Shown here: one piece after another, positions 11,801 to 16,561 of the stretch | Layout: each line of letters starts with the position of its first letter | How positions within the stretch are numbered: position 1 is the stretch's first letter | NCBI GenBank assembly: GCA_020846815.1 | Contig: JADLDF010000438.1 | Span: forward strand, 1-16,561 | DNA: 16,561 nt | Source of the DNA: Gammaproteobacteria bacterium | GTDB lineage: Bacteria > Pseudomonadota > Gammaproteobacteria > Steroidobacterales > Steroidobacteraceae | Reading direction: 5' to 3' | The notes under the pieces: model-generated | Seen by the model: only the letters and a program-made list of their open reading frames with translations | What the model was told of the DNA's origin: nothing | The model's database searches: none | Translations under genes and position numbers: made by a program

Positions 11801-14497
11801 ACGGGCCAGGGTACCGGATCGTTCGTTGCCGGCGCCGATGTGCGCGAGCTGCTCGAGGACGTGCACACCCTCGAGCAGGCCTTGCCGCTGCCGAACAATG
11901 CGCAGCTCGCGTTCCGCAGGATCGAGGCGATGGGCAAGCCGGCGATCGCCGCGATCAACGGCGTCGCGCTCGGCGGCGGCATGGAATTCGCACTGGCCTG
12001 CCATCTGCGGCTCGCCGAGCCGACTGCGAGCCTGGGTCAGCCCGAGGTGCGCCTGAACCTGCTGCCCGGCTACGGCGGCACGCAGCGTCTGCCGCGTCTG
12101 CTGGAAGCGGCAGGCCATCCGGCCCCGCTGTTGCGCGCGCTGGAGATCGTGCTGGGCGGCCGCACGCTGTCGGCGGCCGAGGCGCGTGACGACGGCCTGG
12201 TCGATGCACTCGCCGGCGACGAGGACGTGCTGAGCCTCGCCGTGCGTCTCGCGGCCGAGTATCTGCGCGAGCCGCGAGGAGACGGCCTGGTGGCGCGCGC
12301 GTTTCAGTCGCGCCTCGCGGCGCAGTCACGGTGGCGCGATCCAGGGCGCGACGACTTCGAGACCGCACTGCGCGATCCGGAGGCGCAGCGCCTGCTCGAA
12401 CAGGCGCGGCTCGTCGGCCGCGAGACCACCGCGGTCCGCATCCTCGATGCGCTGCGCACCGGCTGGACGCGGGGCATCGATGCAGGGCTCGCGCAAGAGG
12501 CGCTGCTGTTCGCCGCGGCGGTCGTCGATCCGCGGGAAGGCAAGGCCGGCATCCGCGCATTCATGGACCGGCAGAGCGCGCCGCTGCCGACGCGCCGGGC
12601 TTCCCGGCCGGCATTCGAGGACGCCGCGGTACTGGAGGCGCGCGGCGAGCTGCTGCCGGTCGGCAGCGTGTTCTTTCCCGGCGTCACGCCCCTGCCGCGT
12701 TGGCAGCACGGCCAGGCGGTGCTGCGCGATCCGCGTACCGGCGCGCCTGCGCACGGCCTGCCGCGCGAGGCCGAGCGGCCGATCCTGCTGCCGGTGCCGC
12801 GCCCGGGCGCGAACGAGGCGCTGGTCTATGTGCTCGCTTCCGAGGTCAACTTCAACGACGTCTGGGCGATCACCGGCATCCCGGTTTCGCCTTTCGACAA
12901 CCACGATCTCGACTACCAGGTCACCGGCTCGGGTGGCGTCGGCCTGGTCGCGGCTCTCGGTGTCGAGTTGCGGCGCGAGGGTCGCCTCAAGGTCGGCGAC
13001 CTGGTCATGATCTACAGCGGTCAGAGCGAGCTGCTGTCGCCACTCGCCGGCCGCGACCCGATGTACGCCGGCTTCGCGATCCAGGGCTACGAGACCGATA
13101 CCGGCAGCCACCAGCAGTTCCTGCTCGTGCAGGGGCCGCAGCTGCATCACCTGCCGCCGGACCTGACGCTGGAAGCAGCCGGTTCCTGTGTGCTGAACCT
13201 CGGCACGATCGTGCGCGCGCTGTTCACGACCCTGCAGGTGCAGCCCGGTCGCACGATTTTCGTCGAGGGCGCGGCCACGGGCACGGGGCTCGAGGCGCTG
13301 AAGTGCGCGACGCGTCACGGCCTCGACGCGGTCGGGCTGGTGTCGAGCGATGCACGCGCACAGTTCGTGCGCTCGCAGGGCGCGGTCGGTGCGCTCGATC
13401 GCCGCGATGCGCGCTGGGCCGGTGCTTTCGTGCCCGTGCCGGAGGGCGCGGCGCAGATCGCGGCCTGGGAATCCGCGGGCGAGCCGCTGTGCGCTGCGCT
13501 GCGCGCGCAGACCGGCGACCGGCTCGCCGACTACGTGGTCTCGCACGCGGGCCAGGAGTCGTTCCCGCGCGCGTTCCAGCTGCTCGCCGACGGCGGCACG
13601 CTGGCGTTCTACGGTGCGACCAGCGGCTATGCGTTTTCGTTCGTCGGCAAGCGCGGTGCGGCGAGCCCCGACGAGATGCTGCGGCGTGCGGCGCTGCGCG
13701 CCGGCGAAGCGGTGCTGTTGTACTACGGCGTCGACGGCGCGGCGCTGCTCGATGCGGTCGGGCTGGAAGCGATCGAGGCGGTGCGTGCGCGGGGCGGCCG
13801 GTTGGTCGTCGTCACCGCGACCGATGCACAGCGCGAGTTCGTGCAGTCGCTCGGCTTCGGCGACGCTGTCCGGGGCGTGGTGTCGCTCGAGGATCTCCAG
13901 CGTCGTGAAGGCGCCGGCTTCGAGTGGCCGGCTTCGCTGCCACCGCTGCCGGATGCGAAGCGCGAGACCGCGAAGTTCAAGGAAGCCGTGCGCCTCTACC
14001 AGGAGCGGACCACCAAGCCTTTCGGCGCCGCGATCGGCCGCCATCTGCGCAGCGGCGACAATCCACGCGGCGCTCCCGATCTCGTCATCGAGCGCGCCGG
14101 GCACGATGCGCTCGCCGCCAGCAGCGCGCTGGTGAAGCCGTTCACCGGCCGCGTGGTCTACTGCGAGGACATGGCGGGCCGTCGCTACACTTTCTACGCG
14201 CCGCAGGTCTGGATGCGCCAGCGCCGCATCCTGATGCCGCGCGCGACCATTGCCGGCACGCATCTCTGCTACGCCTGGGAAGTCACGCGCATGAACGAGA
14301 TGATCGCCGCCGGCCGGCTCGAGGTGACGCCGCCGACCATGGTCCCCTGGGAGGCGCTGCCGCAGGCTCACCAGGCGCTGTGGGACAACGCGCAGGCCGG
14401 CGCGAACTACGTGCTCAACCACGCGCTGCCGCGCGCCGGCCTGCGCTCGCGCGACGAGCTGCTGCAGGAATGGGCAGCGCGGAGCACGGCGCGATGA
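8870..14497 (+). CDS. pcs: Propionyl-CoA synthase (trifunctional, 3-hydroxypropionate to propionyl-CoA)
   Basis: A 1875-residue fusion catalysing 3-hydroxypropionate + ATP + CoA + NADPH to propionyl-CoA in three steps. The CoA ligase domain (about 25-890) has P-loop YTSGSTGKPKG (463-473), HGRSDDVINVSGHR (745-758) and the catalytic lysine K847 in TRSGKY. The enoyl-CoA hydratase domain (about 935-1200) has both catalytic glutamates, E1039 in GGGMEFALAC and E1059 in GQPEVRL. The reductase domain (about 1290-1865) is of the crotonyl-CoA reductase type, with NADPH loop EGAATGTG (1466-1473). Similarity to the roughly 1820-residue Chloroflexus enzyme, from memory, is strong along the whole length, including FSDKTLSDRIH, NPPVNALNERALDE and SEVNFND. 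Extra length comes from a low-complexity insert at about 405-427 and a repetitive linker after about 907. Acryloyl-CoA is expected to be channelled inside the enzyme. It is followed by malonyl-CoA reductase, the preceding step of the same pathway. Confidence 0.96.
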   Translation: MTHERLGAPCAAAGPAAVAPPTARHNPLRTRADWQVAREAAARDPGAFHGAIARRELHWFDPMLGPDGAWICFDADAGRWQGFDARTGMPVAVPYAADHEPWTRAFDDREAPFYRWFAGGLTNACFNEVDRHVLAGHGAEAALQFEGDRWDQSLDGGRGGPVVSYAVSRRRLLLEVAKCALALRRLGLRPGDRVAINMPNVPEQLYWTEACKRLGIVYTPVFGGFSDKTLSDRIHDAGARVVITADGGYRNAQVVAFKEVYTDPALDAYVPAEVAIATVERALGTLDGLAPAVLVAILGGARAAARGEITLERSDLMRGIGRTLESIAGLDAAQASRIRIAIASALVATPPRVEAVVVVRHVGMTDMPWRPGRDRWAHELTDAALRELAAAARAVGLLPALASGAPSTTDARDAPNAPTAPDAATAALEDALLALDDRALVAAVWAAVPPLPVDAEFPLFFIYTSGSTGKPKGVVHVHGGYVAGVAYTLRIAFDAAPGDVIYVVADPGWITGQSYMICAALATRVTTVITEGAPVFPSAGRFASTIERCGVTIFKAGVTFLKTVMSDPQNAADVRARSRASLRVASFCAEPVSPAVQHFGMDLVTPWYANSYWATEHGGIVWTHFYGNGEFPLRADAHTYPLPWVMGDVWVADGEPEPSTGRVAARPAAIGEKGEIVVTAPYPYLCRTIWGDAVRFRVVGTRIDPVWKGDFERFARTYWSRWRDRFAYTQGDFAVKHADGGFSLHGRSDDVINVSGHRLGTEEIEGAILRDRQVHADSPVGNVIVVGAPHEQKGLTPLAFVKPAPGRRLGADDRRRLIETVRQEKGAVAVPEDFIEVTQFPETRSGKYLRRMLRALVEGGEVGDTSTLRNPESVPELRRLIDAWRARRRVADEQRLFEDYRYFRIEYHMLSAPAPAPASASATPPAMALASAAAPARLALVTVNNPPVNALNERALDEMNIVVDHLARREDVGAVIFTGQGTGSFVAGADVRELLEDVHTLEQALPLPNNAQLAFRRIEAMGKPAIAAINGVALGGGMEFALACHLRLAEPTASLGQPEVRLNLLPGYGGTQRLPRLLEAAGHPAPLLRALEIVLGGRTLSAAEARDDGLVDALAGDEDVLSLAVRLAAEYLREPRGDGLVARAFQSRLAAQSRWRDPGRDDFETALRDPEAQRLLEQARLVGRETTAVRILDALRTGWTRGIDAGLAQEALLFAAAVVDPREGKAGIRAFMDRQSAPLPTRRASRPAFEDAAVLEARGELLPVGSVFFPGVTPLPRWQHGQAVLRDPRTGAPAHGLPREAERPILLPVPRPGANEALVYVLASEVNFNDVWAITGIPVSPFDNHDLDYQVTGSGGVGLVAALGVELRREGRLKVGDLVMIYSGQSELLSPLAGRDPMYAGFAIQGYETDTGSHQQFLLVQGPQLHHLPPDLTLEAAGSCVLNLGTIVRALFTTLQVQPGRTIFVEGAATGTGLEALKCATRHGLDAVGLVSSDARAQFVRSQGAVGALDRRDARWAGAFVPVPEGAAQIAAWESAGEPLCAALRAQTGDRLADYVVSHAGQESFPRAFQLLADGGTLAFYGATSGYAFSFVGKRGAASPDEMLRRAALRAGEAVLLYYGVDGAALLDAVGLEAIEAVRARGGRLVVVTATDAQREFVQSLGFGDAVRGVVSLEDLQRREGAGFEWPASLPPLPDAKRETAKFKEAVRLYQERTTKPFGAAIGRHLRSGDNPRGAPDLVIERAGHDALAASSALVKPFTGRVVYCEDMAGRRYTFYAPQVWMRQRRILMPRATIAGTHLCYAWEVTRMNEMIAAGRLEVTPPTMVPWEALPQAHQALWDNAQAGANYVLNHALPRAGLRSRDELLQEWAARSTAR
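10082..10150 (+). repeat. Low-complexity xAP insert in the CoA ligase domain
   Basis: Residues 405-427 of propionyl-CoA synthase read as a run of small residues with an xAP triplet pattern (DAPNAPTAPDA), encoded by degenerate 9-bp-like repeats of GCGCCG/GCGCCA. It sits about 36 residues before the ATP-binding P-loop. Compared with my memory of the Chloroflexus enzyme, this region is about 25 residues longer. It is probably a surface loop. Confidence 0.6.
11601..11636 (+). repeat. In-frame hexanucleotide repeat in the ligase-hydratase linker
   Basis: Six tandem CGGCAY/CGGCAA units (three CGGCAC, two CGGCAT, one CGGCAA) encode an Ala-Pro/Ala-Ser linker (APAPAPASASAT) between the CoA ligase and hydratase domains. 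A looser continuation reaches about 11670. The reading frame is kept, so unit gain or loss would change only linker length. Confidence 0.8.
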
Positions 14498-14532
14498 GCG
14501 GCTCCGGCCGGAAATGGAGGAGGATCCAGTGA
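14494..14532 (+). CDS. Putative coupled mini-ORF 1 (12 residues)
   Basis: ATG overlaps the propionyl-CoA synthase TGA (ATGA). The frame encodes MSGSGRKWRRIQ and stops at TGA 14530-14532, overlapping the GTG of the next mini-ORF (GTGA). No strong ribosome site of its own lies upstream, so translation would depend on ribosomes finishing the synthase. Expression is not shown; the basic peptide has no recognised function. Confidence 0.35.
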   Translation: MSGSGRKWRRIQ

Positions 14533-14603
14533 GAGGCAGCGGCTGGAAACAAAGGAGGGGTCCAGTGAGTGGCAGCAGCTGGAAACGGAGGAACGTCCAG
14601 TGA
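14529..14603 (+). CDS. Putative coupled mini-ORF 2 (24 residues, two repeat units)
   Basis: GTG start preceded by GGAGGAGGA. Because its first unit is 36 bp instead of 35, the frame reads through into the next unit, giving two copies of the peptide repeat: MRGSGWKQRRGP then VSGSSWKRRNVQ. The second copy begins at an in-frame GTG (14565) with its own AGGAGGGG, so a 12-residue product is also possible. It stops at TGA 14601-14603, overlapping the next GTG. Expression is not shown. Confidence 0.35.
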   Translation: MRGSGWKQRRGPVSGSSWKRRNVQ

Positions 14604-14638
14604 GCGACAGCGGCCGCGGACGGAGGATGGCGCGATGA
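14600..14638 (+). CDS. Putative coupled mini-ORF 3 (12 residues)
   Basis: GTG start preceded by GGAGGAA. It encodes MSDSGRGRRMAR and its TGA (14636-14638) overlaps the ATG of malonyl-CoA reductase. Like the other two it is basic and Ser/Gly/Arg-rich. It could serve only to deliver ribosomes to the reductase start; expression is not shown. Confidence 0.35.
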   Translation: MSDSGRGRRMAR

Positions 14639-16561
14639 CCCAGGGTGCAGGCTCGCCGGCGAGCGACGGTTGCCGCCCCGGCCGGCTCGCCGGCAAGGTG
14701 GTGCTCGTGACCGGTGCCGACGGCCACCTCGGCGGGGCGATCGTGCGGCGCTGTCTCGAAGAGGACGCGCGCGTCGCGATGGTCGGCCGCCAGCGGGCCG
14801 GACTCGAGGCGGCGCGGGCGCGGATCGCGCAGGCGCTCGGCCGCGAGTTGCCCGATGCCGAGGTGTTGCTGCTGCCGTTCGACGCCGCGGATCCCGCGCA
14901 GGCACGCCGCTGCGTCGAGCGTGTCGTCCGCAAGCTCGGCCGGCTCGACGTCCTGGTCAACAACGCCGGCTCGACCGGTCTGCGACAGCCGCTCGTCGAT
15001 CTGCCGCTGACGCGGGCCGAGGTCGAGGCGCTGCGCGCCGGCGGAGCGAGTGACACCGAGACCGTCGGCGAGGCCATCACCAACGTTTTCGGACTGGTCT
15101 GGCACATGTGTCGCGCCGTCGCGCCGCATCTGCAGCCGGGTGCGAGCGTCGTCAACGTGTCGACGATCTTCTCGCGCACGCGCTACTACGGTCGTTCGGC
15201 CTACGTCGTGCCCAAGGCGGCGCTGAATGCATTTTCGCACCACCTCGCGCTGCAGCTCGGAGCGCGCGGCATCCGGGTCAACGTCGTCTATCCGGGGCCA
15301 GTGGAGGGCGTGCGCATCCACGAGGCGTTCGCGGCCATGGACGGCTTGAAGCAGGTGCCGACCGGGACCACGGCCCAGGAATTCCTCGGCACCATGGCGC
15401 TGGCGCGCGACGACGGCATGGGCGAGCTGCAGCCGGCCTTTCCGTCGGTCGAAGACGTCGCGAACACCATCGTGTTCCTCGGCTCCGACGAGTCGCGGGC
15501 GTTTTCCGCGCACGGCTTCGAGGTGACGAACGGCATGGATGTCCCGCAGGAGTCGCGCTCGACACTGATGTCGCGCCCGGACCTGCGGACGCTGGACGGC
15601 CACGGCGCCACGGTATTGGTGCTGGCCGGCGATCAGGTCGCCGATGCGCTCGCAATCGCGAGGGTGCAGGCCGGCCTGGGTGCGAAGGTGTTGCTCGGCC
15701 TCGGCTCGGCCGAGGCGGTTGCTGCCGCACGAGTCGCGCTCGGCGCGGACGGAGCGGCACGCGTGCGCGCCGCGACGCCAGCCAGTGGACGTGACGGGCA
15801 GATCGAGCCGCTGCTGTTCGAGCGCGATCGTGCCGACGCGGTGGAGGAGCTGCTCGCCGCCACGGGCGCGCAGTTCACGGCGACGCGTGGCGCGCTGCAC
15901 GGCGCGGTCGTGCTGCCGGCGAGCGGCGCGGCCCGCTTCCGCGGCGCACTGCTCGAAGCCAGCGACGCCGACGTCGATGCCTTCCTCGGCAGCGAGCTCG
16001 CCGGCACGATCGCGATCGCCCGCGAGCTGACGCGCTTCTGGAAGCGGTCGGCGGTGCGCGGCGCGGCGCCACGCGCGATCTTCGTGTCGAATGGCGACGA
16101 CGGCGCCGGCAATGCCCATGCGGACATCCTGCGCGCGGCCGTCGAGGCGCTGGTCCGCGTCTGGCGCGACGAGAGTGGCCGCCAGGCGCGCTCGGGAGCG
16201 CGCGCAGCCGTCGAGTGGTCGAACCAGATCCTGCGCTGGAGCAGCGCCGACACCGAGTCGCTGCCGTTCACGGCCGGTGCGGTGGCGCGCCTGCTGTTCA
16301 TGAACCGGCGCATTCCGCAGATCTGCCTGTACACGCCCGCGCACATCGCCGAGGTCACCGGTGCACAGCGCTCCATGCCCGGCTGGACCGAGTCGCTGAC
16401 CGGCCTGCACCTCGGCAAGTGCGTGCTGATCACGGGCGGTTCGGCCGGCATCGGCGGCCAGCTCGCGCGGCTGCTGGCGATCGCCGGCGCCAAGGTCATG
16501 ATCACGGCGCGCCGGCCGGAGCCGCTGCTGGCGATGCGTGCCGCGATCGTGCGCGAGCTCG
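14635..16561 (+). CDS. mcr: Malonyl-CoA reductase, bifunctional (3' end beyond window)
   Basis: The visible 642 codons are open without interruption to the window edge; the Chloroflexus enzyme has about 1220 residues, so roughly half is present. It reduces malonyl-CoA with two NADPH to 3-hydroxypropionate. The N-terminal half, which reduces malonate semialdehyde, is a short-chain dehydrogenase: TGADGHLGG (26-34), NNAG (109-112), NVSTIFSR with S176, and catalytic Y190xxxK194. Then comes a degenerate dehydrogenase-like region (about 320-580). The second unit, which forms the semialdehyde from the CoA ester, starts with LGKCVLITGGSAGIGG (593-608) and is cut by the edge. Segments such as NVSTIFSR, PKAALNA, TESLTGLHLGK and GGSAGIGGQ are near-identical to the known enzyme from memory. 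ATG 14635 has GGAGGA 7 nt upstream and follows the tandem repeat array. It works directly before propionyl-CoA synthase in the pathway. Confidence 0.95.
   Translation, partial: MTQGAGSPASDGCRPGRLAGKVVLVTGADGHLGGAIVRRCLEEDARVAMVGRQRAGLEAARARIAQALGRELPDAEVLLLPFDAADPAQARRCVERVVRKLGRLDVLVNNAGSTGLRQPLVDLPLTRAEVEALRAGGASDTETVGEAITNVFGLVWHMCRAVAPHLQPGASVVNVSTIFSRTRYYGRSAYVVPKAALNAFSHHLALQLGARGIRVNVVYPGPVEGVRIHEAFAAMDGLKQVPTGTTAQEFLGTMALARDDGMGELQPAFPSVEDVANTIVFLGSDESRAFSAHGFEVTNGMDVPQESRSTLMSRPDLRTLDGHGATVLVLAGDQVADALAIARVQAGLGAKVLLGLGSAEAVAAARVALGADGAARVRAATPASGRDGQIEPLLFERDRADAVEELLAATGAQFTATRGALHGAVVLPASGAARFRGALLEASDADVDAFLGSELAGTIAIARELTRFWKRSAVRGAAPRAIFVSNGDDGAGNAHADILRAAVEALVRVWRDESGRQARSGARAAVEWSNQILRWSSADTESLPFTAGAVARLLFMNRRIPQICLYTPAHIAEVTGAQRSMPGWTESLTGLHLGKCVLITGGSAGIGGQLARLLAIAGAKVMITARRPEPLLAMRAAIVREL

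Follow-up and report, generated by a model that had tools for sequence, protein, structure and literature searches.

The pcs-mcr junction and its repeats

The stretch of DNA considered here (the window, 16,561 nucleotides of contig JADLDF010000438.1 in the assembly GCA_020846815.1 of a Gammaproteobacteria bacterium) carries two long coding sequences on its forward strand: pcs, for a trifunctional propionyl-CoA synthase-like protein, and the 5' part of mcr, for a malonyl-CoA reductase-like protein. They are separated, from the stop of pcs to the start of mcr, by 137 nt, and an array of four tandem units of 35, 36, 35 and 35 bp lies between them. The 1875-residue product of pcs combines AMP-ligase, enoyl-CoA hydratase and zinc-dehydrogenase domains, as a propionyl-CoA synthase should, and is 69-81% identical to 28 sequences chosen among the 120 matches listed; the nearest of the listed proteins and genome loci belong to Steroidobacteraceae-type metagenome-assembled genomes (MAGs) and to other proteobacteria. 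A tblastn search of plasmids with this protein gave only relatives below 60% identity (2187 records). The product of mcr matches P0137, a protein from a cluster of 9 sequences, at 641 of 642 residues, and many of the relatives listed for P0137 bear the Joint Genome Institute (JGI) name malonyl-CoA reductase. From their strand and distance, the two genes are taken to form an operon.

The repetition itself is evident. Tandem Repeats Finder gives the array a score of 122, and 300 shuffles of the region that preserved its dinucleotides yielded no repeat with a period of at least 20. The units are 63-83% identical to one another (a divergence of 17-37%) and end in GTGA (units 1-3) or ATGA (unit 4). 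Five start codons, ATG at 14494, GTG at 14529, 14565 and 14600, and ATG at 14635, the last being that of mcr, follow each other at spacings of 35, 36, 35 and 35 nt, as the initial annotation of this DNA had described. It had also placed well-positioned Shine-Dalgarno (SD) sequences before the last four starts, and the duplex energies, for which the letters of the anti-SD were assumed, agree: the values for the five starts are, in order, -5.8, -12.1, -12.1, -9.5 and -9.5 kcal/mol, and the last four rank in the best 0.3-0.6% of the 1061 NTG codons in the window (Table 1). There is no further copy of the array elsewhere in the 16.5-kb window.

These signals are joined by a chain of short open reading frames (mini-ORFs). 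The stop of pcs (TGA, 14495-14497) overlaps ATG14494, the stop of mini-ORF 1 overlaps GTG14529, that of mini-ORF 2 overlaps GTG14600 and that of mini-ORF 3 overlaps the ATG of mcr, and each of the four overlaps, from pcs to mcr, is of 4 nt (ATGA or GTGA). The series of overlaps proposed earlier, from the synthase through the mini-ORFs to the reductase, is thus present, but not every start is a link in it: unit 2 carries one additional base, and GTG14565 lies in frame within mini-ORF 2 and is an internal entry site instead of a stop-start link. A scan for such chains, made on both strands of 85 loci and the window (86 sequences, 1.59 Mb) with ORFs of up to 40 codons, found 15 chains of at least four A/GTGA links, the window's among them; an SD-like tetramer before each of four successive starts occurs only in the window's chain.

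Table 1. Positions of the genes, repeat units, mini-ORFs and SD regions in the window.
Feature	Position	Strand	Remarks
pcs, trifunctional propionyl-CoA synthase-like, 1875 aa	8870..14497	+	Pfam AMP-binding, ECH_1, ADH_zinc_N
Left boundary copy of the initiation region	14480..14497	+	weak SD GGAG, ATGA overlap; 16/18 identical to 14621-14638
Mini-ORF 1, MSGSGRKWRRIQ*, 12 aa	14494..14532	+	start position is the mcr-frame start site of 23/31 relatives
Unit 1	14498-14532	+	35 bp
SD region of GTG14529, GGAGGAGG	14516..14523	+	-12.1 kcal/mol
Mini-ORF 2, VRGSGWKQRRGPVSGSSWKRRNVQ*, 24 aa	14529..14603	+	covers units 2 and 3; internal in-frame GTG 14565
Unit 2	14533-14568	+	36 bp
SD region of GTG14565, AAAGGAGGG	14551..14559	+	-12.1 kcal/mol
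Unit 3	14569-14603	+	35 bp
SD region of GTG14600, CGGAGGA	14586..14592	+	-9.5 kcal/mol
Mini-ORF 3, VSDSGRGRRMAR*, 12 aa	14600..14638	+	within unit 4; stop overlaps the ATG of mcr
Unit 4	14604-14638	+	35 bp
SD region of mcr ATG14635, CGGAGGA	14621..14627	+	-9.5 kcal/mol
mcr, malonyl-CoA reductase-like, 5' part (runs past window end)	14635..16561	+	Pfam SDR domains

Origin of the array

The pcs-mcr junctions of relatives were collected from 80 retained pcs loci and from searches of the genus (24 genomes) and family (217 genomes, 23 of which have mcr at E<=1e-100) around G003, the closest relative genome examined. A junction was accepted when mcr lies -50 to +400 nt after pcs in the same orientation; loci with other arrangements, such as most of those from Chloroflexota and haloarchaea, drop out, and the removal of duplicates left 32 distinct junctions, that is, the window and 31 others. 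In 23 of these 31 the reading frame of mcr has a start at -4 nt, in a 4-nt overlap with the stop of pcs (starts being in-frame codons here, not proven starts), and the remaining ones comprise three other overlaps, one gap of at most 20 nt and four longer gaps. Among the genomes of the genus search recur the junctions of two GenBank MAGs titled Klebsiella pneumoniae (loci L033 and L043), in which mcr follows a pcs 73-74% identical to that of the window; these titles look wrong. In G003 itself, pcs-like copies or fragments occur more than once, on the contigs C83 and C85 (loci L090, L110 and L081), and the copy close to mcr is split between two frames, with residues 13-1072 in one and 1075-1871 in the other.

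The window retains an ATGA at the position of the common overlap, 14494, where the frame now ends after 12 codons. Furthermore, the two ends of the array (14480-14497 and 14621-14638) are identical at 16 of 18 positions, or at 12 of 14 when ATGA is left out (binomial 5e-7 and 4e-5), as would be expected if one initiation region had been duplicated and the intervening copies had diverged. The ancestral mcr would therefore have started at an ATGA overlapping the stop of pcs, and a stretch of about 35 bp, with its SD and its overlap start, would have been duplicated in tandem to four copies in the window's lineage. An origin of the repeats by duplication of the mcr initiation region had already been suggested, and the start shared with 23 relatives together with the match of the ends lends it support: this lineage appears to have duplicated the region in tandem. 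Our preferred reading, to which we give a probability of about 0.48, is that the array is a tandemly duplicated initiation region through which mcr would stay coupled to pcs; the duplication steps, the transfer of ribosomes and any benefit are what we infer in it.

The length of the unit is central to this reading. When the overlap is inside the repeated unit, copies whose length is 2 (mod 3) link up with one another, those of 0 (mod 3) merge two ORFs into one, as seen in unit 2, and those of 1 (mod 3) would break the chain; since 35 is 2 (mod 3), each copy forms a mini-ORF that ends in an overlap with the start after it, and coupling could outlast the insertion through this phase. The chain is then largely a direct outcome of the unit length and not an independent surprise, and the part that might require selection is its retention while the units diverged.

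No array, and no repeat with a period of 35-36, is present in any of the 31 junctions of relatives. At the level of DNA, 214 of the 217 family genomes matched the array at E<=1, with a best value of 8e-4 per genome and only 17-51 nt covered among the matches listed (three candidates were scored per genome), which is no better than chance. Similarly, none of 187 loci contains the core motif, which within the window picks out units 1 and 3. Within these family genomes and loci, an element dispersed in relatives was thus not seen, and the evidence leans towards a lineage-specific duplication. Short unrepeated junctions in related genomes, with no copy elsewhere, had been put forward as a sign of a neutral and recent duplication; the comparison favours a restriction to one lineage but not a very recent date, because the units differ by 17-37%.

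Two pattern surveys covered 369 genomes of the class. The pattern of the first one (9/369 genomes, backward control 2/369) does not match the array of the window and is unusable as a negative. The second pattern, which finds units 3-4 of the window and allows one spacer length only, occurs in 13/369 genomes (backward control 4/369), in what we take to be calcium-binding-type repeats, a dispersed ...GGAATGAC repeat and single pairs. The strongest lookalike from the first survey, arrays of 18-19-bp GGAGGGAGCCGATGACAG units in the genomes G435 and G533, was rejected as it does not chain genes; in G435, some 380 bases separate the end of the array from the next likely gene, and the flanks in G533 are similar. 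Large tandem arrays of this type, SD-/ATGA-like, likely intergenic and linking no genes, are found in two genomes of the class at L168:315-870 and in L169.

A different origin would be a basic N-terminal tail on the reductase that has been broken up by frameshifts, or that only looks so through sequencing error; with single-base changes, the units would read as basic repeats of 12 residues. Many malonyl-CoA reductases, among P0121-P0240 and at the junction loci, have lysine/alanine-rich N-terminal tails of highly variable length, some of them built of short repeats and reaching 66 residues at the 23 overlaps, where tails are of 7-66 residues and mostly lysine-rich. The peptides of the mini-ORFs are basic (net +4, +7 and +3), as are most of the relatives' tails (median +10 over 23), and 47 codons fall inside the length range of those tails. 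However, insertions or deletions would be required in three of the four units; the peptides use AGG/AGA, which make up 1.2% of the 238 Arg codons of pcs and mcr, a choice that is expected if these bases are SDs and because of which the mini-ORFs look shaped as SDs rather than as protein. In addition, small tandem repeats of other periods are found at 8 of the 31 junctions of relatives, and those with a period of at least 12 are all divisible by 3 except one (period 13); and the tail at the start of the window's reductase is, as in P0121-P0125, short and not lysine-rich, unlike the basic tails of the other relatives compared. Taken together, a degraded tail is very improbable.

Possible ribosome transfer across the array

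If the array is used, a ribosome leaving pcs would reinitiate stepwise at 14494, 14529, 14600 and 14635 and reach mcr in this way, while the strong SDs would also admit ribosomes de novo at several points, all of them leading to mcr. The losses at each step would multiply along the chain unless de novo loading supplies ribosomes. In Escherichia coli and Haloferax, translational coupling falls steeply with distance and requires an overlap or a very short gap: according to PMC10666635, it has almost disappeared at 22-23 nt in Haloferax, while in E. coli a distance of 38 nt cuts it by 80-90% or abolishes it. By these distances, the 137 nt between pcs and mcr would abolish direct coupling unless they are bridged, which is what the mini-ORFs would do. 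Short ORFs are reported to deliver ribosomes to a coupled gene and are exploited for this in biotechnology (reviewed in PMC12548453), and the relay is compatible with the published behaviour of coupling, although in the window the passage of ribosomes is our deduction. A function of the array is, on the grounds of its sequence, plausible; a stronger proposal, that the mini-ORFs form a self-linking functional relay in which the number of units tunes mcr relative to pcs and selection acts on SDs, overlaps and phase, seems to us rather unlikely.

Ribosomes might also enter at the four SDs independently, raising mcr above pcs, with coupling to pcs being of no importance and the array being a step towards an uncoupled mcr such as that of G003. 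The SDs of the array equal or exceed the best of the 23 overlaps of relatives (median -7.8, range -9.5 to -4.8 kcal/mol), and the uncoupled mcr of G003, about 2.6 kb downstream of pcs, has an SD of its own of likewise -12.1 kcal/mol. Nevertheless, ribosomes loaded upstream would reach mcr only through the overlaps, for which the chain would still be needed, and the internal GTGs at 14565 and 14600 are predicted to be paired in part, with a start-codon openness of 0.11-0.49. Independent entry is accordingly an improbable account of the array as a whole.

A stem that holds the SD in its loop and has the start at its base can be drawn over the units; 18 of its 20 positions pair across the four units, and three of them are compensatory. 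Shuffles of the columns equal it in 4 of 2000 cases, and in 1 to 3 of 1500 for stem lengths of 4-6. When the sequence context is included, the stem is predicted in units 2 and 3 only (14542-14566 and 14578-14601), as six pairs with the first bases of the start codon in the stem foot; the pairing of unit 4 is not significant on its own nulls (P = 0.067 and 0.31). Such a stem may reduce de novo starts at the inner GTGs and so favour ribosomes coming from upstream, a weak lead from modelling. The same pairing could be ascribed to an element acting on DNA or RNA with no role in translation, such as protein-binding iterons, a promoter or a structured RNA, and promoter activity has been reported in PMC4213456 for a comparable region of repeats, that of senX3-regX3 in mycobacteria, where such repeats can act on transcription. 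The array folds, however, with ordinary energy (z = -0.21; 88 of 200 shuffles fold equally well), has no match in Rfam and, in a scan confined to this type of promoter, shows no sigma-70-type promoter or terminator consensus; we regard this explanation as barely credible.

A neutral history deserves more weight. The repeats could have arisen by slippage at the 5' end of mcr, a region prone to repeats, with only the last unit (its SD and ATG14635) being of importance and the upstream starts being leftovers that have not yet decayed. The variable tails and small repeats at the junctions of relatives, as well as the chance level of matches in the family genomes, agree with this, while the persistence of all SDs, all starts and the chain in units that have diverged by 17-37%, and the fact that the extra base in unit 2 left the chain unbroken, speak against it. 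The columns of AGGA and TGA are invariant across all units, 7 of 7 compared with 9 of 28 of the other columns (hypergeometric 0.0017). A simulation that counted all units kept all signals in 1.0% of cases and was rejected as unfair, since mcr requires unit 4. The conservation of the signals is weakly better than expected under neutrality, which is suggestive only, and a neutral relic is a real possibility, albeit one that we hold to be less than probable.

Several observations weigh against a duplicated region that keeps the two genes coupled. Wider definitions of the SD give column P values of 0.03 and 0.07, and neutral simulations in which the mcr unit is held fixed retain every SD, every start and the chain in 7.8-9.0% of cases. 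The mcr gene has a strong SD of its own and may not need coupling; its frame is also open from an in-frame GTG at 14569, which would lengthen the reductase by 22 residues, so two in-frame starts are possible (14569 and 14635). Coupling can evidently be lost, as the distant mcr of G003 with its strong SD indicates, and four of the 31 junctions of relatives have gaps above 20 nt. As for the short ORFs, the last 15 nt of a native upstream gene suffice for coupling in PMC10666635, but in fusions to a long reporter, which is no proof that ORFs of 39-75 nt carry it. Finally, the array has so far been seen in a single sequence.

If duplication with retained coupling is correct, a coupled gene pair would have taken up an insertion of about 140 nt with no loss of coupling, and nature would offer a multi-step reinitiation system in which the yield can be measured per step. 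Even if neutral, the array would still be a clear record of the duplication of initiation regions at gene overlaps.

Comparison with known systems

The overlap of -4 nt is the most common geometry of coupled genes (PMC6728339, PMC10666635), and every link in the window is of this kind; the difference is that termination-reinitiation at ATGA/GTGA usually concerns one direct overlap of two genes, whereas the window has several successive links through mini-ORFs. The mini-ORFs would play the role of the ribosome-delivering short upstream ORFs described in PMC12548453; iraD, for instance, has one coupled short upstream ORF (PMC5574718), in contrast with the three repeat-derived ORFs that lie between two genes here. 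Intergenic direct repeats are also known in marine Beggiatoaceae, where the TAACTGA repeats have a possible post-transcriptional role (PMC4679880); these, unlike the array, are heptamers occurring in 169 sets in one draft genome, and they are not known to form chained mini-ORFs.

The closest resemblance is to the mycobacterial interspersed repetitive units (MIRUs), and the earlier statement that no element of such form had been described is not supported, as MIRUs are described in very similar terms. In particular, an ORF in the MIRU is coupled to a gene at a spacing of -4 nt (reviewed in PMC12548453), and the units of the window, as far as geometry is concerned, likewise carry an ORF at -4 nt to the next gene. 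The MIRUs between senX3 and regX3 are tandem units of 77 and 53 bp (PMC4213456), and 77 and 53 are both 2 (mod 3), as is 35; the promoter activity of that region is a warning that repeats of this type may act otherwise than by coupling. At rnc-fpg, related species have short junctions and the Mycobacterium tuberculosis complex has tandem repeats, termed MIRU-VNTR (variable number tandem repeats), and MIRUs have been proposed to make translation differ between the genes of an operon (PMC2734929). Outside mycobacteria, a limited search of the open literature found no description of such an array.

The array of the window shares with MIRUs, in their described architecture, its nature of a tandem repeat between two genes of a putative operon. 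It differs from them in its units of 35-36 bp, which are below the 40-100 bp of MIRUs, and in its host, which is proteobacterial-type and not mycobacterial. MIRUs occur at 41 dispersed sites in M. tuberculosis H37Rv (PMC2734929); the array, with its diverged units, is so far known at one junction. Since unit length and host depart from those of MIRUs, we do not class it as one, and it is apparently an independent variant of a MIRU-like architecture. The phase rule by which coupling would survive the insertion also fits the published lengths of MIRUs and, if the relay operates, the two cases together would mean that a simple arithmetic condition, 2 (mod 3), lets repeats spread inside coupled operons with no cut in translation.

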